Source: Magnetococcales bacterium (GTDB taxonomy: Bacteria; Pseudomonadota; Magnetococcia; Magnetococcales; Magnetaquicoccaceae). From it: 64,000 nucleotides of DNA. How positions within the stretch are numbered: the stretch's first letter is position 1; the number at the start of each line of letters is the position of its first letter. The stretch is from positions 1-64,000 of the forward strand of contig PDZU01000005.1 in the NCBI GenBank assembly GCA_002753095.1, written 5' to 3'. Shown here in pieces: positions 1-64,000 of this stretch. Position numbers and translations under genes: made by a program. Below the pieces are notes generated by a model. That model ran no database searches. It was not told the origin of the DNA and worked only from the letters and a program-made list of their open reading frames with translations.

Positions 1-289
1 TGGCGCGGTTTTCTGCGCCAACATGCACACCCTCCTAATGGGTTTTGCCCGCAGCAGGTGAATCAACCCGCAACCAGACTGTGATATTCGTTCATCGAAC
101 ACCAAAAAGTGCGTTATAATCCAAACGGTTAAAGTCGGGCTCCGCCCTCCCAAAGAGTGCCCCTGCGGGGCACAGATTTGGGCGCGCGGTACAGATTTGC
201 TACGCAAATCTGCTTCGGTAAAAGCGCGCCATTTCAAGCAGGGCTCCGCCCTGCACCCGCAAGGGGAGATAATCTCCCCTTGACCCCAT
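1..289 (+). repeat. Copy A of dispersed palindromic intergenic element (left part cut off by window start)
   Basis: Shares the blocks ctccgccctcccaaagagtgcccctgcggggcac, cagatttgct.cgcaaatctgctt..gtaaaagcgcgcc and caaggggagataatctccccttgacccca with copies B-F. Confidence 0.85.
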
Positions 290-317: not shown

Positions 318-1697
318 TCAGGCACGCACCGGGGGCAACTGCTGCAAAGCTTCAGCCACACAATCCCAGGCCCGGTGCAACTCAGCATCAGTGATACAAT
401 AGGGGGGCAACAAATAGAGAGCATTACCAAGCGGACGCAACAGGAAACCGCGATCCAAGAAAAATTGACGCAAGAACAAACCAATGCGTGAGGCATACCC
501 GGCATCATCGGCCTGAATATCCAACGCAGCAATGGAACCCATGACACGAGGACAACACACACGAGGATGCCGCTGCACCTCCAACAAACGCTGGCAGTGA
601 ATCTCCTCCAACTGCGCAATACGGGCCAAAGTCTCCTCTTCATCAAACAACGCCAAAGCCACCACCGCAGCCGCACACCCCAAAGGATTGGCCGTAAAAG
701 AGTGACCATGGGCAAAAGCCCGGTCAAAACTCTCCCCCAAAAAAGCTTGATAAATCTCCTCCCGACAAACCGTCACCGACATCGGCAGAAAACCCCCAGT
801 CAACCCCTTGGACAGACAGATAATATCCGGGTCCGTGCCCGCCCGCTCACAGGCAAAAAGACGCCCCGTGCGGCCAAAACCAGTCATGACCTCGTCAAAG
901 ATCAACAATACACCCGCCGCCCGCAACCGCTCCGCCACCTGCTGCACAAACTGCGGACGACACATGCGCATGCCCGCAGCCCCCTGCACCAAAGGCTCCA
1001 TCAAACAGGCCGCACACTCCCGACCATGCCGGGCCAAATAGTCATCCAACACCAGAAGCGCCTCACGCTCCCTCTGCTCCACCGCCTCATCCCCCTGCCA
1101 GGTCGCCGGAAAAGGCAACCAGTCCACAGGAAAAAGTAAAGAACGAAACGGCTCGAAAAATCCACTGGACCCCCCCACCGACATGGCCCCCACCGTATCG
1201 CCATGATACCCACCCACACAAGCCAAAAAACGCTCCCGCCGCTCCCCCCGGTTAAACCAATACTGGCGGGCCATCTTCAAGGCCACCTCCACAGAGGTCG
1301 AACCGTTATCGGAAAAAAAAACCCGCTGCAACCCGACAGGCAACTTGGCCACCAAGGCCGCCGCCAGTTGCACAGCCGGAGGATGGGTAAAACCGGCAAA
1401 AACCACCTGCTCCAAGGTCATGGCCTGCTGGGCAATCGCCTGGGCAATGCGCGGATGGGCATGGCCATGGGTGATCACCCACCAAGAAGAGATTAAATCC
1501 AAATAACTCTGACCGTCCGCCCCATACAACGTGGCCGCCCGCGCCGCCACAATCGGAGTCGCCGGCGGCGCCGTTTTGGCCTGGGTAAAAGGATGCCAAA
1601 CATGGCGCGCATCCCACGCCAACCACTGCGCACTGTCACTCTGTTCATCCAACCGCTTTGCCATCGACCAACCACTTTCCGCCGCACAACGACCCAA
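318..1697 (-). CDS. bioA: Adenosylmethionine-8-amino-7-oxononanoate aminotransferase
   Basis: 459-aa ORF; class III aminotransferase with WHPFTQ, SSWWVITHGHAHP, FSDNGSTSVEVALKMA and IFDEVMTGFGRTG. Confidence 0.95.
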   Translation of the reverse strand: MGRCAAESGWSMAKRLDEQSDSAQWLAWDARHVWHPFTQAKTAPPATPIVAARAATLYGADGQSYLDLISSWWVITHGHAHPRIAQAIAQQAMTLEQVVFAGFTHPPAVQLAAALVAKLPVGLQRVFFSDNGSTSVEVALKMARQYWFNRGERRERFLACVGGYHGDTVGAMSVGGSSGFFEPFRSLLFPVDWLPFPATWQGDEAVEQREREALLVLDDYLARHGRECAACLMEPLVQGAAGMRMCRPQFVQQVAERLRAAGVLLIFDEVMTGFGRTGRLFACERAGTDPDIICLSKGLTGGFLPMSVTVCREEIYQAFLGESFDRAFAHGHSFTANPLGCAAAVVALALFDEEETLARIAQLEEIHCQRLLEVQRHPRVCCPRVMGSIAALDIQADDAGYASRIGLFLRQFFLDRGFLLRPLGNALYLLPPYCITDAELHRAWDCVAEALQQLPPVRA

Positions 1698-2825: not shown

Positions 2826-5761
2826 ACACTTTTCTCCTGCTTGATCTGCTCCATCAGCCTGACAACAATCTGTTGGGCCTGCTCCGTCTCAAATTCAGCC
2901 AACTGCTGTTGCAACTGGCTCAACAAACCAGGATCGGCCCCACAACGCTGCAAAAGAGGCATCAACCGTTCCACAGAACGTCTCGCTTCATCAAAATCAC
3001 CATCCAGCGCATTGTATATCTTTTCCAACCAAGGATGCACCTCACCCTGCACCTCCCCCTGCCACTCGGCAGTTGCTACGGCACGCACGTCCGTCTCTGG
3101 AAACAACCCAGAAAGAACCTGCATCACCCCCTCCAAAGAGTGGATAAATTGGTTGACCAAAACCGGTGACTCCAACACCTCCACAATGGCCTGCTCCAAC
3201 TCCGCCGCCAAGGCAGCCAAAGGAAACGCCCCAATACCCGCCGCCAAACCCCGAACACTGTGGACCAAACGCCGGGCCGTCTCCCGATCCCCCTGCATCA
3301 GCGCAGTACGCAGCTGGCCAGTCGTCTCCCGCTGCCCTTGCCAGAAACGCCGCACAATCTGTCGGTAAACCTGCTCATTGCCACCCACATGACGAATACC
3401 CGCCTGCCAGTCCAACGCGACCGCAACCTCCCCCGCCTCATCCACACGATCCTGCTGTAACCACTCCCGACTGCCCCCCTCCGACGCTGGACACTGCTCA
3501 CCATCCGGCAGGGCAATCAATGCCAGCAATACCTGATACAACGACTCCGGATCCAGTGGCTTGATCAAATGATCGTTCATGCCAGCCGCCAACGAACGCT
3601 CCCGATCACCACGCATCCCATGCGCAGTCATCGCCACAATCGGTAACTGCTGACCATCCGGTATCTGCCGAATCAAACGACACGCCTCCAAACCATCCAG
3701 CACCGGCATCTGTATGTCCATCAGGATACAATCATAACGCTGCTGCGCGGCCATCTGTACCGCCTGCCGACCGTTGGCCGCCACCTCCACATGAATGCCA
3801 ACCTGTTCCAAAATCTCCCTGGCAATCAACTGGTTGATCTCATGGTCATCCACAACCAACACCCGAATGCCACGCAAGCGAAACAATGCCTGCCAGGAAA
3901 GCGCATGATGCCCCGCCGCCTGCATCCCCCAACGCTTCTGCCCGGCAACACGCTCCGGTTGCTGCTGCTCCGCCAAATGCATGGGCAACAAAACCGTAAA
4001 CTGACTGCCCTTACCCAAAGTGCTTTGGGCATAAATCGTGCCGCCCAACAGCTCTACCAAATGCCGACTGATGGCCAACCCCAACCCCGTCCCCCCATAA
4101 CGCCGGGTAATCGAACCGTCCGCCTGCTGAAACGCCTGAAACAGACGCTCCAACTGCTCCGGCTCAATGCCAACCCCACTATCCCACACCGAAAATTGCA
4201 AAACAGCCCGTTGCCCCTGCCGGATCACCTCCAAAACCGCAACCACCACATCACCCTGTTCGGTAAACTTGATGGCGTTGCTCAACAGGTTGGTTAACAC
4301 CTGCCCCAACCGCAATGGGTCACCCAGCCAATGGCGCGGCAAACTGTCGGCAATCTCCACATGCACCGCCACCGCCTTGCCCTCACCATACCACGTCGCC
4401 ACATCCATCAGGTCAGCCAATACCTCATCAAGGTTGAACTCCACCCGCTCAATGGCAATCTTGCCCGCCTCCACCTTGGAAAAATCCAGAATATCATTCA
4501 AAATGGATAACAACTTGCGCCCAGCCCGCACCACCTTCTCCATGTACGCACGCTGCTTGCGATCCAACTTGCTCTGCAACACCAGTTGACTTAAACCCAA
4601 AATGGCATGCATCGGGGTGCGAATCTCATGGCTCATGTTGGCCAAAAATTCCCCCTTGGCCCGATTGGCCAACTCCGCCCGCCGTTCGCTCTGCTGCAAC
4701 TGCACATAGGTCTTCTTGAGCGTCTCCTCCACATGCTTGCGCTCGGAAATATCCCGCAATACCCCCACCGTGCCCACAAACCGCCCCTGCCGATCGCGAA
4801 CCGGCGCACTGTACATGCCCGCACTGCTGATCTCCCCCGTGCAGGGCATGGCAGCCCCCTGCTCATCCGACAATGCCTGACCGGCCAAGTGGCCCGTCTT
4901 GGAGCGCAAACGAACCTCCAACCCCAAGGTCTGCCGCTTGCCAGTGCGCCGCTCATCAAAAAGCTTGGGCGGCGTGGCCGGTTGGGTGGAACCCTTGAGC
5001 TGCTGGATTAAATTGGCAAAACTGATCCGCTCCACCTCCTGCGGCTCAATAATGGCACTAAAATGTTGCCCCAACAAATCTTCCGTCGTGTAACCCAAAC
5101 GCTCCAAGGCATGATTGATGAAGGTGAAACGACCCTTGGCATCCAATTGAAAAATCATGTCGGGCACCGTCTGTACCAAGGTCTGATACTTCTCCTTGGA
5201 GGCCAGCAAATCAGCGTTGAGACGGTTCAGTTTGTCATGCAAAGCATTGAGCTCATTATTCTTGCGCAAAATGCTCTCATAGATGGACAAGAGAAAGTTC
5301 AACACCTGGTCCCGGTTGGCACCAATCTGAAAACGCTTGCCAGCCGCCATTTCTATGACGCGTATGGACTCCGCCCGCTGCGGCGTCGCCGTGCGCAGCG
5401 AATCCCATACCTTGCGCAACAAATCCGCCTCATCGTAAGGCTTGAGGATGTAGTTATCCGCCCGCGCTTCCAACCCCAACAGAATCTCTTCCATGGTCGA
5501 AAGCTCCGATAACAACAGCACCGGTATGGCCTGGCGGCGCGGATCCTCTTTCAGAATGCGGCACATCTCATAACCGGACATGACCGGCATGTTGATGTCG
5601 CTGATGATCAAATCAGGGGGGTGGTCGTTGACACACCGCAACGCCTCCAGACCATTGCTGGCGGTCATGACCGAAAATTGATTGTTTTTGAGAATTTTTT
5701 CCAGAAAAAAAGACTGCACCAAACTGTCTTCGACAATCAGGATGAGCGGCAAAGTATGCAT
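2822..5761 (-). CDS. Multidomain hybrid sensor kinase (REC-PAS-HisKA-HATPase-REC-HPt)
   Basis: 979 aa; N-terminal [22 protein letters not shown]-box, GGTGLGLAIS, second REC VLVVDDHEINQLIA, C-terminal HPt-like LVHSVRGLAAGIGA. Confidence 0.93.
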   Translation of the reverse strand: MHTLPLILIVEDSLVQSFFLEKILKNNQFSVMTASNGLEALRCVNDHPPDLIISDINMPVMSGYEMCRILKEDPRRQAIPVLLLSELSTMEEILLGLEARADNYILKPYDEADLLRKVWDSLRTATPQRAESIRVIEMAAGKRFQIGANRDQVLNFLLSIYESILRKNNELNALHDKLNRLNADLLASKEKYQTLVQTVPDMIFQLDAKGRFTFINHALERLGYTTEDLLGQHFSAIIEPQEVERISFANLIQQLKGSTQPATPPKLFDERRTGKRQTLGLEVRLRSKTGHLAGQALSDEQGAAMPCTGEISSAGMYSAPVRDRQGRFVGTVGVLRDISERKHVEETLKKTYVQLQQSERRAELANRAKGEFLANMSHEIRTPMHAILGLSQLVLQSKLDRKQRAYMEKVVRAGRKLLSILNDILDFSKVEAGKIAIERVEFNLDEVLADLMDVATWYGEGKAVAVHVEIADSLPRHWLGDPLRLGQVLTNLLSNAIKFTEQGDVVVAVLEVIRQGQRAVLQFSVWDSGVGIEPEQLERLFQAFQQADGSITRRYGGTGLGLAISRHLVELLGGTIYAQSTLGKGSQFTVLLPMHLAEQQQPERVAGQKRWGMQAAGHHALSWQALFRLRGIRVLVVDDHEINQLIAREILEQVGIHVEVAANGRQAVQMAAQQRYDCILMDIQMPVLDGLEACRLIRQIPDGQQLPIVAMTAHGMRGDRERSLAAGMNDHLIKPLDPESLYQVLLALIALPDGEQCPASEGGSREWLQQDRVDEAGEVAVALDWQAGIRHVGGNEQVYRQIVRRFWQGQRETTGQLRTALMQGDRETARRLVHSVRGLAAGIGAFPLAALAAELEQAIVEVLESPVLVNQFIHSLEGVMQVLSGLFPETDVRAVATAEWQGEVQGEVHPWLEKIYNALDGDFDEARRSVERLMPLLQRCGADPGLLSQLQQQLAEFETEQAQQIVVRLMEQIKQEKSV

Positions 5762-8181: not shown

Positions 8182-11100
8182 GTCCCCTCCTCGCCCTGCG
8201 TGATACCACAGCCTTGCGCCAAAACATCGACAGCCTGTACTGCCGCCTCAAACTCAAACTCCTCGATCAGTTGCTCCAATTGCTGACCAACGGCAAGATA
8301 GCTCTCATTTGGACAATGGGCTCTGATCTCTGCCAACTTTTCCGCCGAACGGGAGTGTCCCGCCGCCAACAGTTGCCGCAACTCGCGCAGCAAGGCGCGC
8401 ACATGCGCCTGGTCAACCACCGCAGCAGCGCCCTCTGCCGGACCGGGCACAGCAGCCTGTGGGCTGGACCCGGCCACCGCCTCCGCTGGCAACGCCGCGA
8501 TGCCATGAAACACCCGCCCAATCTCCTGGCTGAACTGCTCCAGCAGGGGCGCATACTCCACCCCATCGCCCCCCTTCAAGGTGCTTTCCAGATCGCGGGT
8601 GTAACGATGCAACGCATGCGCCCCCAAAGATCCGGCAATCCCTTTGACCGTATGAATCACCCGTAACACCTCTGGGCGCTTGTCCTGCTGCAACCCCTCA
8701 CGAATGGTACGGACCACATGCTGGTAATCTTGGCGAAACTCCCGCAACAAGCGATACAACAATACCCGGTTGCCCGCCACCTGCCGCAAACCCACCGCCA
8801 TATCGATGCCGGGTAACGACTCTTGGCCCGGTTGTGGTTGCGTATCCAGTGCCACCGTCTTTTTAACCGCCAGCGCCTGACGATCCTTGGGCGTTATCCA
8901 CTGCACCAGAGTCTGAAAGAGTTTTTCCGGATCGATGGGTTTGGTAATATGATCATTCATCCCCGCCGTCAATGATTTTTCCCGATCCCCCACCATGGCG
9001 TGCGCGGTCAGAGCGATGATGGGCAATTTCTCTCCCCCCGGCAAAGTACGGATCATGCGCGTTGCCTGGAAACCATCCATCTCCGGCATCTGAATATCCA
9101 TCAGGGCAATCTCAAAGGCATTTTGTTTGACTGCCTCCACCGCTTCCCGGCCATTGCCCACCACGGTCACCTGCAAACCATGCCCCTCCAGCAAGGCAGT
9201 GGAAACCTGTTGGTTGATCTTGTTGTCATCGGCCAGCAAAACCCGCGCCCCCATGATGCGCTGTGCTGCATCGGTATTTTGCACCGGATCCAATTTGCGA
9301 TTTTTCCGACCTTCCCGTTTCTTGAGGTTAAAAGCCACCTGAATCGCCGCCAACAGTTGCGACGGATTGACCGGCTTGGGCAGAAAAGCATTCAACAGAT
9401 GGCGCTCAGAGGCCGGAATCACCTCCTGGCGATTGTAGGGCGTGACCAGGATGATGCGCAGATCCTTACCAAACAGGGTACTTTGCCGAATACGCTGCGC
9501 CAGTTGCAAACCATTCAGGTGCAACATCTTCCAGGTTAAAATCACCAGCCGGAAAGGTTCCTGCGCAGGATCCATCACCGCCTCTTCCAACATCTGCAGG
9601 GCCTGCTCAGCGGTGGTGGCCTGACGGGGATGACAACCATAATCAACCAACATATCCTGGCAAATCTCCTGAAAACGCAGATGGTCATCGACCACCAACA
9701 CCTTCAGCCCCAACAACTCTTCATCCAAGGCCATTGCATGCTGTTCGGCATCGCTCTGCAGGGCAAACCATGCATTGAAATGAAACTGGCTGCCCCTGCC
9801 CAATTCACTGTTGACACCAATGCTCCCCCCCATCATCTCGACCAGATGCTTGCAAATGGACAAACCCAAACCGGTGCCACCATACTTGCGGGTGGTGGAA
9901 GCATCCGCCTGCGAAAAGGGGCTGAACAGGCGACCGACCTGAACCTCATTCAAACCGATCCCTGTATCCTCCACCTGAAACTGCAGATCCACCTTGCCCT
10001 CCCACTGGCGCAGGCAACGGATACTGATGACGATATTGCCCGCTTCGGTAAACTTGATGGCATTGGCGGTCAGGTTGGTCAAAATTTGCCCCAGTCGCAA
10101 CGGATCACCCAGCAACAGGGTGGGCACATCCTTGCTGCGGGAGAAAAGGAGAAACAAGCCCTTCTCTTCCGCCTTGACACAGATCAAATTGGCCAAATTC
10201 TCCATGGTATCATCCAGATTGAACGGTACCGACTCCATGGCCATTTCCCCGGCCTCAATCTTGGAGAAATCGAGAATATCGTTGATAATCCCTAGCAAAG
10301 CACGGGCGGAATAGTGAATCTTGCTCACGTAATCATGCTGCGTATCGCTCAGTTGGGTCCGCAAAGTCAGATAACTCATGCCAATCACCGCATTGATTGG
10401 CGTGCGAATCTCGTGGCTCATGTTGGCCAAGAATTGCGATTTATACTCGCTGGTGCGCTGCAACTGCTCGATGGTCGTGTTGAGTTCACTCTGACTCTGA
10501 ATCAGGGCCTCCTTTTGCTGCAGCGTTTGATTCAGCAGGATACGGTTGCGCAGAATGGACTGAACCCCCGCGATGGCAACGGCAATGGCCCCGGCAACAC
10601 GCAGGGCAAAATCCAGATAGGGGGCCGAAAAGGGTTGCACCCGACCCAGCGTGATCACACCATGCACCTGATCATTGAGCAACAAGGGCAGTGCCACCAA
10701 GGTGCTGGGCAACAGATCCATCACCCCGGTACGCATCACAAAACAGTCCGCCGGGATATCGGTCAACACTTTCATGGTGCGCTCTTCAAAAACCGCCGCC
10801 AGCCAACCTTCCCGATAATCCATCCGCTCCGGCAGGTATGGCTGCGTCACGGCATGGCTGGAGTAGAGTCGCAACAGGCCATCCTCTTCCAGCAGATAGA
10901 TGCTGCCCACCTGGGCATCCAAAGCCCGAATCAAAAAGTGCAAACCCACCCGACACAGGGCATCTACATCCTCCGCTTCCCGCATGGCCCGGTTGAGTTG
11001 CACAAAACTGCGCTCCTGGTTCAGGCGCATCTGCACCTGCTCATGCTCGTTGTTGCGCAGAGCGTGCAAATCCAGCCCCATCTGCCGCATGGCCTGCACC

Positions 11101-29976: not shown

Positions 29977-30426
29977 TTGCGGGTCCAGGGGGGTCACCCC
30001 CCTGGCGGGTCCAGGGCGGAGCCCTGGGGTTTTATCTTTTATCTTTTCGCCTTTATCTTTTATACTTTATCTTTTATCTTTTCGCCTTTGGCGCGCTTTT
30101 CACGATAAGCCGATGCGCCTTTTGCATCGGCGCAGCGCGCCTAATTGACGCAAGGTGTTTGGATTGGCGCGCTTTTCTGCGCCAATTCAAACACCCTCCC
30201 AATGGGTTTTCCCCGCCGGTGACTCAATACCTCGCGGTTAAAAGTCGGGCGTCCGCCCTCCCAAAGAGTGCCCCTGCGGGGCACAGATTTGGGCGCGCTG
30301 CGCAGATTTGGCTGCGCCAAATCTGCTTCGTTAAAAGCGCGCCATTACAAGCAGGGCTTCGCCCTGCACCCAGCAAGGCTTCGCCCTGCACCCAGCAGGG
30401 GCGGTGACCGCCCCTGCACCCCGCAA
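29977..30426. repeat. Copy B of dispersed palindromic element (apparently complete)
   Basis: Ends ttgcgggt...accccgcaa; imperfect inverted termini of about 45 bp; internal palindromes shared with D and F. Confidence 0.9.
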
Positions 30427-36620: not shown

Positions 36621-36846
36621 ATGGGGTCAAGGGGAGATTATCTCCCCTTGCGGGTGCAGGGCGGAGCCATGCTTGCAATGTGCGGCGTTTTTAAGAAAGC
36701 AAATGCGTAGCATTTGCGCACGCCGCACAGATTTGGGCGCGATGCGCAGATTTACTGCGTAAATCTGCTTCGTTAAAAGCGCGCCATACAAGCAAGGGCT
36801 CTGCCCTTGCAACCCGCCAGGGGAGATAATCTCCCCTGGACCCCAT
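36621..36846. repeat. Copy C of dispersed palindromic element (compact, 226 bp)
   Basis: Bounded by atggggtcaaggggagattatctccccttg and its inverted relative caggggagataatctcccctggaccccat; shares the agatttgggcgcg...gcgcgcc core. Confidence 0.85.
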
Positions 36847-54577: not shown

Positions 54578-55034
54578 CCGGGTCCAGGGAGCTGGCTCCC
54601 TGGCGGGTCCAGGGCGGAGCCTTGGGAATTTGGCTTTTATCTGTTGCTTTTATCTGTTGCTTTTATCTGTTGCTTTTATCTGTTGCTTTTATCTGTTGCT
54701 TTTATCTGTTGCCTTTGCCTTTCTGGCGCGCTTTTCACGATAAGCCGATGCGCTTTTTGCATCGGCTTAAGCGCCTAATTGACGCAAGGTGTGCGTATTG
54801 GCGCGTTTTTATGCGCCAATACGCACACCCTCCCAATGGGTTTTCCCCGTAGGTAACTGCGTACCTCGCCGTTAAAAGTCGGGCTCCGCCCTCCCAAGGA
54901 GTGCCCCTGCGGGGCACAAATTTGGGCGCGCTGCGCAGATTTGCTGCGCAAATCTGCTTCGATAAAAGCGCGCCATTACAAGCAGGGCTTCGCCCTGCAC
55001 CCAGCAGGGGCGGTGACCGCCCCTGCACCCCGCA
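54578..55034. repeat. Copy D of dispersed palindromic element (apparently complete)
   Basis: Same module order as copy B; contains a 6x13-bp tandem array at 54634-54711. Confidence 0.9.
54634..54711 (+). repeat. Perfect tandem repeat, 6 units of cttttatctgttg (13 bp)
   Basis: Counted directly in the sequence. Confidence 0.97.
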
Positions 55035-55055
55035 GTAATTTAACAGATTAACAGC

Positions 55056-55832
55056 TCAACGATAAATCGTAACCTGCTCCTGCTCCGCCGGCATCCCGAC
55101 ATCAGGAGCCCAACCACCTTGCTGCACCATGTTACCACTCAACTGACCTTGCAACTGCCGAATGGCATCCTGCGCCAAACCCTTGGAAACCTCAGCAATC
55201 ATCCGACCCCGACTGGGCACCACCCGCGCCGCCGCCGACTCCCGCAACCGCACATCCGACCCCTCACCCATGGCACTAAAAGCCGCCTTCACCTCGCCAC
55301 TCTTGGCATGGATCAAACTGAACTCCACCACCAACTCCAAACCAACCGTCTGCGCATAAGTCGATACAGTCCCAGCAACAGGCGTGGACTCATCCCGCAC
55401 ATCAATACTGCTGACCGTACCAAAAAGAACGTAATCCGCCCCCTTGTAATAGCCCCGCTTGATGCGATCCAATACGTCAAACAACCGCTCCTGATCCTTG
55501 CCACCAATCGGCTTGCCCTGCACCACCCGATAGCCGGATTGAATCAACTCCCCCCTCAAATCAGCGGTAAACTTGTGCAACTCCCCACGGTCAATGTATA
55601 CATTGACCCCCTCCCGCTCATCATAAAGGAAATCAGTCTGCTCCCGACCACTGCGCACACTCTCCTGACGCGTCTGCCGAAAATCAGCAGACACAGAACG
55701 AAAATATTGCTGCACCTTCTCCTCATAGGTCAGATCCGTCACAGCAATCTTGGGCGGTCCCTTGTCCGCCGCATGCCCCACCACACTCAAACACATCCAA
55801 ACCAACACCATCCAGCCACGGAGCACTCTCAT
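55056..55832 (-). CDS. Exported protein, CsgG-like
   Basis: Signal peptide VWMCLSVVGHAA; KIAVTDLTYEEKVQQYF, GADYVLFGTVSSIDV, AKSGEVKAAFSAMGEG; start MRVLRGWMV. Confidence 0.65.
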   Translation of the reverse strand: MRVLRGWMVLVWMCLSVVGHAADKGPPKIAVTDLTYEEKVQQYFRSVSADFRQTRQESVRSGREQTDFLYDEREGVNVYIDRGELHKFTADLRGELIQSGYRVVQGKPIGGKDQERLFDVLDRIKRGYYKGADYVLFGTVSSIDVRDESTPVAGTVSTYAQTVGLELVVEFSLIHAKSGEVKAAFSAMGEGSDVRLRESAAARVVPSRGRMIAEVSKGLAQDAIRQLQGQLSGNMVQQGGWAPDVGMPAEQEQVTIYR

Positions 55833-55886
55833 AAGCCCTCTCCTTTGAATTTTCCCATACCCACCAATCAAGCCAACAAGGTGCAT

Positions 55887-56041
55887 GTCGGGCGTCCGCC
55901 CTCCCAAAGAGTGCCCCTGCGGGGCACAGATTTGGCGCGCTGCGCAGATTTGCTGCGCAAATCTGCTCACGTAAAAGCGCGCCATTTCAGCAGGGCTCCG
56001 CCCTGCACCCGCAAGGGGAGATAATCTCCCCTTGACCCCAT
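55887..56041. repeat. Copy E of dispersed palindromic element (right half only)
   Basis: tccgccctcccaaagagtgcccctgcggggcac...caaggggagataatctccccttgacccca. Confidence 0.88.
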
Positions 56042-56058: not shown

Positions 56059-56670
56059 CTAACGCGTCGTCGTCTTGCGAATCTCCTTCTCATCCGCCCA
56101 CTCCACCACCCCGGACTCGATCTCAGTCAAACGCAGGCTGAATTTATAGTAAACGTCATGAATATCCTGCGTGCGCTTGGTGATGGAAGAGATACTACCC
56201 ACCAAACGATAATCGGCGCCCTCCATCCTGCCCATCTTCTTGCTGGTGCTTTTTTTGTATAGTCCACTCTGATTCTGACGCGCCAACTCCTCAGTCTGAT
56301 CCTGCATGTCCGCCGTATCTACCACAAAACGAACCACCCCACTCTTGGTCATCTGGGTCAAAATCGAATCCGTAATGGCACGGGTGTCAATATACTCGCT
56401 GGTCTTGTTCTTGACCTCGTTGACAGTCACCAAAGGTCGACGCTTGCCACCATGCAAAGCCGGAGATTGCAACATCGAACGGGTCATACTCTCCGCAATC
56501 ATCTGCAAATCAGTCGAACCAAAGGTGTTGGTCACCGTCTCCACCGCCTTGGCATCCCCATACTGCACATTGCCCCCAACCAAAGGCGGCGACGTAGGAC
56601 CAGAACCAGTCGCACAACCCGCCAATAAAGAGGTCACTACCAACAGCTTTGCTACCCTTCTCATCGTCAT
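56059..56670 (-). CDS. Penicillin-binding protein activator LpoB-like lipoprotein
   Basis: Lipobox LLAGC; NEVKNKTSEYIDTRAITDSILTQMTKSGVVRFV; GADYRLVGSISSI. Confidence 0.8.
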   Translation of the reverse strand: MTMRRVAKLLVVTSLLAGCATGSGPTSPPLVGGNVQYGDAKAVETVTNTFGSTDLQMIAESMTRSMLQSPALHGGKRRPLVTVNEVKNKTSEYIDTRAITDSILTQMTKSGVVRFVVDTADMQDQTEELARQNQSGLYKKSTSKKMGRMEGADYRLVGSISSITKRTQDIHDVYYKFSLRLTEIESGVVEWADEKEIRKTTTR

Positions 56671-56692
56671 CTCTCCCCAGTTATGAACAACC

Positions 56693-57148
56693 CTAACGCA
56701 CCACCTCGTTCCATGGCTGACGCGGCTGATTGGCCGCAATGTCCACCGGAACAGAATTGTTGGGCGCATGCATCTCTAAACGAAAATCAACCGCCTGCGG
56801 AGCCGGCGCTACCGTGCGCAAAAATTGCCGCTGCTGCCCATGCAACAGCAACGGCTTCCACGCCTCCTCATCCAAAACAAAACCCGCCGCATCTACCCAA
56901 CGGAAACGATACGATACACTCTGATCCTGCGTGGTGGGGTTGAACACCTCCGCCTGAACATGCAATAAATTGTTGCGCCGCACAACCCGCAACTCCACCG
57001 GCTGCACATCCAACATCACCCCCAACTCCTCCACCTTGCTGGCAATGGCCGCCGAACGCTGCGGGGGGGGCTGACAGGCCGCCAACCCCACCATCACGAC
57101 CACCATACCACTACCCAATACCCACTTGGACCACAATCCATCACCCAT
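56693..57148 (-). CDS. YcfL-like (DUF1425) lipoprotein
   Basis: Lipobox VGLAAC; VQAEVFNPTTQDQSVSYRFRWVDAAGFVLD. Confidence 0.75.
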   Translation of the reverse strand: MGDGLWSKWVLGSGMVVVMVGLAACQPPPQRSAAIASKVEELGVMLDVQPVELRVVRRNNLLHVQAEVFNPTTQDQSVSYRFRWVDAAGFVLDEEAWKPLLLHGQQRQFLRTVAPAPQAVDFRLEMHAPNNSVPVDIAANQPRQPWNEVVR

Positions 57149-63766: not shown

Positions 63767-64000
63767 TTGCGGGTCCAGGGGGGTCACCCCCCTGGCGGGT
63801 CCAGGGCGGAGCCCTGGGAATTTATCTTTTGATTTTAATCTTTTCGCTTTTAATCTTTTGCCTTTGGCGCGCTTTTCACGACAAGCCGATGCGTTTTTTG
63901 CATCGGCGCAGCGCGCCTCATTGACGCAAGGTGTTTGGATTGGCGCGCTTTTCTGCGCCAATCCAAACACCCTCCCAATGGGTTTTGTGCGAGGTCACGA
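63767..64000. repeat. Copy F of dispersed palindromic element (right part cut off by window end)
   Basis: ttgcgggt begins one base after the murG TAA; same left-half modules as copies B and D. Confidence 0.9.

Follow-up and report, generated by a model that had tools for sequence, protein, structure and literature searches.

Copies of the Element in the Window

The window considered here, a 64-kb stretch of DNA of contig C20 of a 3.58-Mb Magnetococcales MAG (the home genome), contains six copies, A to F, of a modular palindromic element, all of them within a few bases of the places assigned by an earlier note on this DNA, which had also described correctly the palindromes and the module order of copies B and D. 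Copy D (54580..55034, plus strand), a full element with convergent genes on either side, consists of the left end palindromes T1 and T2 (54584..54625, plus strand), with GGGT ahead of each, a pyrimidine minisatellite S (54633..54710, plus strand) made of about six copies of the 13-bp unit GCTTTTATCTGTT, a nested hairpin N1 (54725..54775, plus strand; GGCGCGCTTTTCACGA...) with a T-rich loop, a hairpin H with a 17-bp stem (54788..54829, plus strand), the hairpins K (GTCGGGCTCCGCCC) and P (GTGCCCCTGCGGGGCAC) (54878..54917, plus strand), a nested hairpin N2 (54925..54974, minus strand), which is the N1 module type inverted and has the loop C(GCA)G on its own strand, and the right end palindromes T2' and T1' (54982..55031, minus strand). 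At the site of copy D, relative G004 possesses a plain intrinsic-terminator-like hairpin, G001 has an element version of its own, and a type-3 end starts at the contig end in G005. Copy B (29981..30425, plus strand), also located between convergent genes, shows the full order T-S-N1-H-K-P-N2-T', with a type-2 left end and a type-1 right end, and the orthologous intergenic region of G004 is devoid of the element.

The nature of the remaining copies can now be specified further. Copy A (1..287, plus strand) is cut by the contig start and retains part of H, followed by K, P, N2, T2' and T1' (a type-3 end), its T end being directed at the 3' end of a gene for a class-III aminotransferase (318-1697, minus strand). 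Copy C (36623..36844, no strand assigned) is symmetric, being composed of two right halves arranged head-out, with type-3 ends, and its neighbors are what we take, by eye, to be an acylphosphatase-like ORF and a murA-like ORF. Copy E (55885..56039, minus strand) is a solo right half (T-N-P-K) with its T end toward the 3' end of an lpoB-like gene (56059-56769, minus strand). Copy F (63771..64000, plus strand, continuing to contig position 64238) is complete, and it does adjoin the end of murG (matching PF03033/PF04101), as noted earlier, starting 4 nt after the stop codon rather than one base after it; the orthologous site is empty in both G005 and G001. Contig C112 of G001 lacks the gene found here between copies D and E (window 54580-56039) and has one element in that position, an arrangement that recombination between two copies would produce. 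A different kind of repetition is presented by positions 4245-4341 and 10030-10126, which are 73% alike, each located within a long minus-strand ORF (979 and 1426 amino acids, respectively), and which probably represent paralogous protein domains.

Distribution of the Family

A search with a covariance model, as suggested in the earlier note, reveals at least 150 right-half matches in the home genome, a lower bound because the model matched all of the 150 scored candidates. Of the 61 genomes searched (home included), the family was matched in 44 of the 48 that belong to the order, and in none of the 13 more distant genomes from the wider phylum. The 30 best copies in a whole-element BLAST have E values from 7e-240 to 1e-97, 88 clusters were obtained by scanning 803 kb of the home genome (about 22%) for the modules, and a pattern search detected the same end palindromes in records named Magnetococcales. 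In the home MAG and in related MAGs, copies are interrupted by several contig ends, among them the start (position 1) of the window contig C20, and the copy number is therefore a lower bound for this reason as well; at the same time, the repeats account for contig breaks in such assemblies. No match to the element was found in a plasmid search, none in the window in Rfam at the gathering score, and no description of the family in the open-access literature searched, which is part of the whole literature. The double end palindrome GGGTCCAGG..CCTGGCGGGTCCAGGGCGGAGCCCTGG is also present in MAGs named Acetobacteraceae, Rhodospirillales, Desulfovibrionaceae and others, where the stretches read are devoid of the inner modules.

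Architecture and Base Pairing

The basic structure is a half-unit made of end palindromes T1-T2, optionally S, a nested hairpin N, and then either H or P-K. A half-unit may stand alone (approximately 160 bp) or be joined to another, inverted and head-out (approximately 430 bp, as in B, D, and F), and the forms seen are the full T-S-N1-H-K-P-N2-T' (about 430 bp), the solo right half (about 157 bp), the solo left half (about 200 bp) and the symmetric right-right form, element units spanning 157-560 bp. The ORFs inside the paired halves examined are host-type genes or small chance ORFs, with no transposase among them, in agreement with the earlier note. Outward-facing T ends separated by 1-4 kb were considered as candidates for autonomous copies, but these enclose ordinary or host-type genes, presumably smpB, hemC, hemD, and the like (named by eye), and such spacing results because T ends face the outer genes.

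Copy D folds as a single strand with z = -10.5 as RNA and -11.0 as DNA. In two alignments, of 52 right and of 25 left halves, which cover the helices T1, T2, N, P, K, N1, and H, all of them covarying, 98.9 and 99.6% of the helix cells, respectively, are paired, versus 90.0 and 91.5% after shuffling and 33-55% with slid partners. Compensatory double changes affect 13 pairs in each of the two alignments. The most variable helix is hairpin H, in which double changes occur at 9 of the 17 pairs among 25 copies, while its flanks hardly vary. Such covarying stems present a natural data set on how palindromes stay paired. Of 1672 cells, 1628 are Watson-Crick, 17 (about 1%) are G-T, 10 are A-C and 17 are other combinations. 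RNA helices usually tolerate more G-U, and, because non-Watson-Crick cells are rare here, it may be at the DNA level that pairing is maintained, through hairpin-templated repair or through selection on single-stranded DNA, an alternative explanation being the youth of the copies. The scarcity of G-T provides no specific support for RNA. Read along the T-to-K strand, the loop of a stem is often C(GNA)G. Loops of this type are stable as DNA triloops, and we considered loop chemistry, and also position, as a potential proof of RNA or DNA, but C(GNA)G does not decide between RNA and single-stranded DNA. The repeat unit of minisatellite S varies from copy to copy, being GCTTTTATCTGTT in D and AATCTTTT or others elsewhere, as if each array were homogenized locally.

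Transposon Ends Outside the Palindromes

One class of solo halves has, as its inner flank, an inverted copy of the outer flank of type-3 T ends, a feature that revealed the true ends; in the relatives, these termini are found 11-30 bp beyond the end palindromes. The inverted ends recognized in the earlier note are thus real, as subterminal palindromes, but they are not the transposon termini. One type of terminus is the 13-mer GTAACTATTCAGC, present in 23 of 41 genomes (0 for the reversed control), which bounds the same palindromic units, with duplications matching at 8/8 positions, in G004 (AAAAATCC, as well as CGGTTTTT around a full K-H-N1-S-T element at C24:150174-150566), G021 (CAGGCAAC and ACGGGAGA), and G005 (AAAGACGT), while two copies bounded in this way in G036 have duplications matching at 7/8. 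The same ends bound an IS66 transposase (DDE_Tnp_IS66, PF03050, in a 535-amino acid ORF) in contig C27 of G007, with GTCTTTGC on both sides, and an IS66 element of G030 has the near-identical end GTAACTATTCACCA with GAAGCAGA. Duplications of 8 bp are typical of IS66, and those of 10 bp of IS4-like groups; the assignment of the 8-bp family to IS66 is backed here by the match to PF03050. Some of the home copies also retain more of the IS66-type end (C134:427 and C165:40830).

Another type of terminus is CAGGGCAATCGCATTT, with 210 matches in G005 and 34 in the home genome, allowing up to one mismatch, versus 0 for the control. In G005 it bounds units of 246-248 bp with a T-N-P-K half inside. Among 27 distinct copies (25 from G005 and 2 from home), 17 have 10-bp duplications that match at 8/10 or more positions, where 2.9% would be expected by chance, and several of the remaining copies have 9-bp repeats shifted by one base. 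Duplications are also seen in the home copies C66:12318-12555, with GGGCCGCTGC (10/10), and C23:24950-25187 (9 bp). At C118:27331-27373, the home genome further carries a 43-bp TIR palindrome that consists of just two CAGGGCAATCGCATTT ends and is flanked on each side by ATCACCTGC; it looks like a derivative reduced to its ends. A transposon bounded by CAGGGCAATCGCATTT was not found, and an IS4-type partner was considered and rejected, as no PF01609 locus in the genus has such ends. The home insertion sequence at C47 (918-2349) encodes a DDE_Tnp_1 transposase and has ends CATCCCGTTACACA and a 10-bp duplication, GCCATTAACT, these ends being unlike those of the MITE.

With the termini located, the transposase with matching ends that the earlier note had suggested looking for is, for the GTAACTATTCAGC ends, of the IS66 type, in G007, and not of the RAYT type. 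That these are REP/BIME (REPIN-like) repeats moved by a RAYT tyrosine transposase is very improbable, even though GGGT precedes each end palindrome, the palindromes form inverted pairs in extragenic, 3' locations, and genes for Y1 transposases are present in 28 of 41 genomes. Origin from a RAYT/HUH enzyme was rejected, as the Y1 genes of the order are not flanked by palindromes of the element, in any of the 15 loci inspected or in C162:40001-50000. Moreover, no Y1 gene was found in G018, G036, or G013, all of which possess the element, target duplications are made in the relatives, and the tag is GGGT, while the tags of RAYT-linked REPs are GTAG or CGTC (PMC3733652). What is left of the REP-like character proposed earlier is the look of the end palindromes.

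Copies in the Home Genome and Empty Sites

As to the mobility of the copies in the home genome, about 22 of 24 syntenic intergenic regions are without the element in G004, G005, or G001, in a tally made by hand and with the exact junctions blurred by sequence divergence, a comparison of occupied and empty sites of the kind proposed in the earlier note. If the palindromes are taken as the ends, no target duplication is seen around the home copies (33 full, 64 total). Duplications do persist in two or three of the home copies, but most, including B and D, have neither TIR nor duplication, and many pair different end types, and it is because of these features that mobilization of the home copies has to be deduced from the relatives. 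The left-end consensus of B and D, AAAACA(A/G)TTGC-GGGTCC, corresponds to the inner part of the IS66-type end. When 33 home type-2 ends are compared to this end, the inner 15 bp match at a mean of 9.8/15 positions, which is above chance, while the outer 13 bp match at a mean of 3.9/13, which is close to chance, and B and D are for this reason best read, from sequence comparison, as descendants of an IS66-type MITE whose outer ends would have been lost.

Alternatively, the sharp boundary between the inner and the outer parts could mark the limit of a mobile unit that is shorter and has ends of its own. The T-to-T core would then be a second mobile unit at home, ending near AAAACAATTGC-GGGTCC, making no target duplication and relying on another enzyme (for example, HUH or hairpin-recognizing), with the IS66-type elements of the relatives having captured it. 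The conservation boundary, which in the type-2 copies at home lies some 11 bp beyond T, the lack of duplications around the 33 full and 64 total copies, and the two different end types often carried by full copies would all agree with such a unit. However, in G004 the full architecture is bounded by intact IS66-type ends and by an 8-bp duplication, the home copies at C134:427 and C165:40830 keep more of the IS66-type end, and an enzyme gene linked to the AAAACAATTGC-GGGTCC ends was not found. We consider this second unit unlikely, and the descent of B and D from an IS66-type MITE the better reading.

The MITE nature of the element, proposed in the earlier note, is supported, mainly by the sister species: no transposase is encoded inside, TIRs (GTAACTATTCAGC or CAGGGCAATCGCATTT at both ends, in relatives and in a few home copies) and target duplications of fixed length are present, a transposon of the IS66 type with the same ends represents an autonomous partner, orthologous sites are occupied in some genomes and empty in others, and the copy number is high.

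Placement at Gene Ends

The copies tend to be located just after stop codons, as already noted for the window. Among 63 home elements for which both neighbors are called, 29 have convergent neighbors, 34 have codirectional ones and none has divergent ones, versus 77 convergent, 494 codirectional, and 77 divergent background gene pairs. The T ends of home copies face gene 3' ends in 82 cases versus 19 facing 5' ends (23 versus 3 for solo halves), at a median distance from the gene 3' end of 29.5 nt. The fresh copies of G005 are distributed differently: 2 of 19 are convergent, 12 codirectional, and 5 divergent, and their T ends, 9 facing 3' and 14 facing 5' ends, reveal no 3' bias (Fisher p = 0.0001 versus home; 0.0007 versus home solo halves; 0.0004 for divergent placement), in a comparison based on two species, simple codon-model gene calls, and modest numbers. 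Both of the home copies with intact duplications lie between divergent genes. Since the fresh copies of the sister species show no gene-end bias, the position at gene ends looks like selective survival and not targeting. Fresh, duplication-bearing and old, end-less copies in sister species thus offer a direct computational test of whether sites are targeted or merely surviving.

It could be proposed instead that this is a structured RNA or terminator family that selection alone holds at gene ends, with mobility playing no important part. The strong covariation, the strict placement behind genes with the T end facing the gene, and the plain terminator-like hairpin at the site of copy D in G004 are in line with this proposal. 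However, TIRs, duplications, and presence/absence patterns show transposition, the wobble is little for an RNA family (17 G-T of 1672 cells versus 10 A-C), and Rfam provides no match, making this proposal rather improbable. Replacement of terminators was considered separately, but a strict scan (GC hairpin plus a direct U tract) detects few terminators anywhere (5/97 versus 4/57) and shows no difference between sites. As to the 3'-end or RNA-structure role mentioned in the earlier note, the placement is real and significant, and the function is putative.

A Mobile Element Probably Retained at Gene Ends

The explanation that we consider probable is of a MITE mobilized in trans, with a paired hairpin core, that is kept mainly at gene ends. 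A structured half-unit, single or as a head-out inverted pair, resides inside the terminal repeats of insertion sequences, of at least two kinds, one IS66-type, with the 8-bp duplication, and one with CAGGGCAATCGCATTT and the 10-bp duplication, and transposases encoded elsewhere mobilize, or have mobilized, the copies in trans, as shown, mainly in the sister species, by the TIRs, the target duplications, the IS66-type element with the same ends, and the empty orthologous sites. The home copies are mostly old, with transposon ends eroded, in type-2 copies, to chance identity. The palindromic core stays almost fully paired as its sequence changes, and the survivors are found just past the transcribed ends of genes, with the T hairpins toward the gene. 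Most probably, insertion takes place into intergenic DNA generally, followed by loss from promoter regions and retention at gene ends. The copies may be retained there because they are harmless, or because a 3' end is provided by the hairpins, through termination or as an exonuclease block; the retention step is supported by the data on placement, and a benefit of the retained core is presumed. A selfish element may thus be kept as gene-end hardware, and, should the hairpins function as 3' ends, transposition would here have supplied a bacterial genome with many gene-end elements.

More tentatively, and with less likelihood, one core may have been passed across the order between MITE families with unrelated ends and transposases, and selected after insertion as a 3'-end element. 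If so, transposed copies would act as interchangeable hairpin 3' ends in place of ordinary terminators, and selection would be on pairing and not on sequence.

Relation to Known Elements

The nearest precedents are BOX, RUP, and SPRITE of pneumococci, which are modular, strongly folded, intergenic elements of the MITE type, with TIRs and target duplications, SPRITE being enriched at the 3' ends of coding sequences and proposed to have been co-opted as a terminator (PMC3049150; for MITEs in general, see the review PMC10969869). The likeness, as compared here, is one of architecture, and the element differs in that its helices covary between copies and in that one core rides different transposon ends order-wide. 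With REP/BIME/REPIN sequences it shares palindromes with a leading tetranucleotide, inverted pairs, an intergenic location mostly downstream of genes, and compensatory changes (PMC2817692, PMC3116915, PMC3733652), but it differs by the lack of a flanked RAYT gene, by a different tag, by units of 160-450 bp, and by the duplications found in the relatives. With the IS66-family MITEs it shares GTAA... TIRs, the 8-bp duplication, and the lack of coding capacity, along with an IS66 transposase with the same ends in the same bacterial family. Unlike these, it has a large hairpin core that is common to unrelated ends with a 10-bp duplication, and most of its home copies have kept this core while losing the ends.
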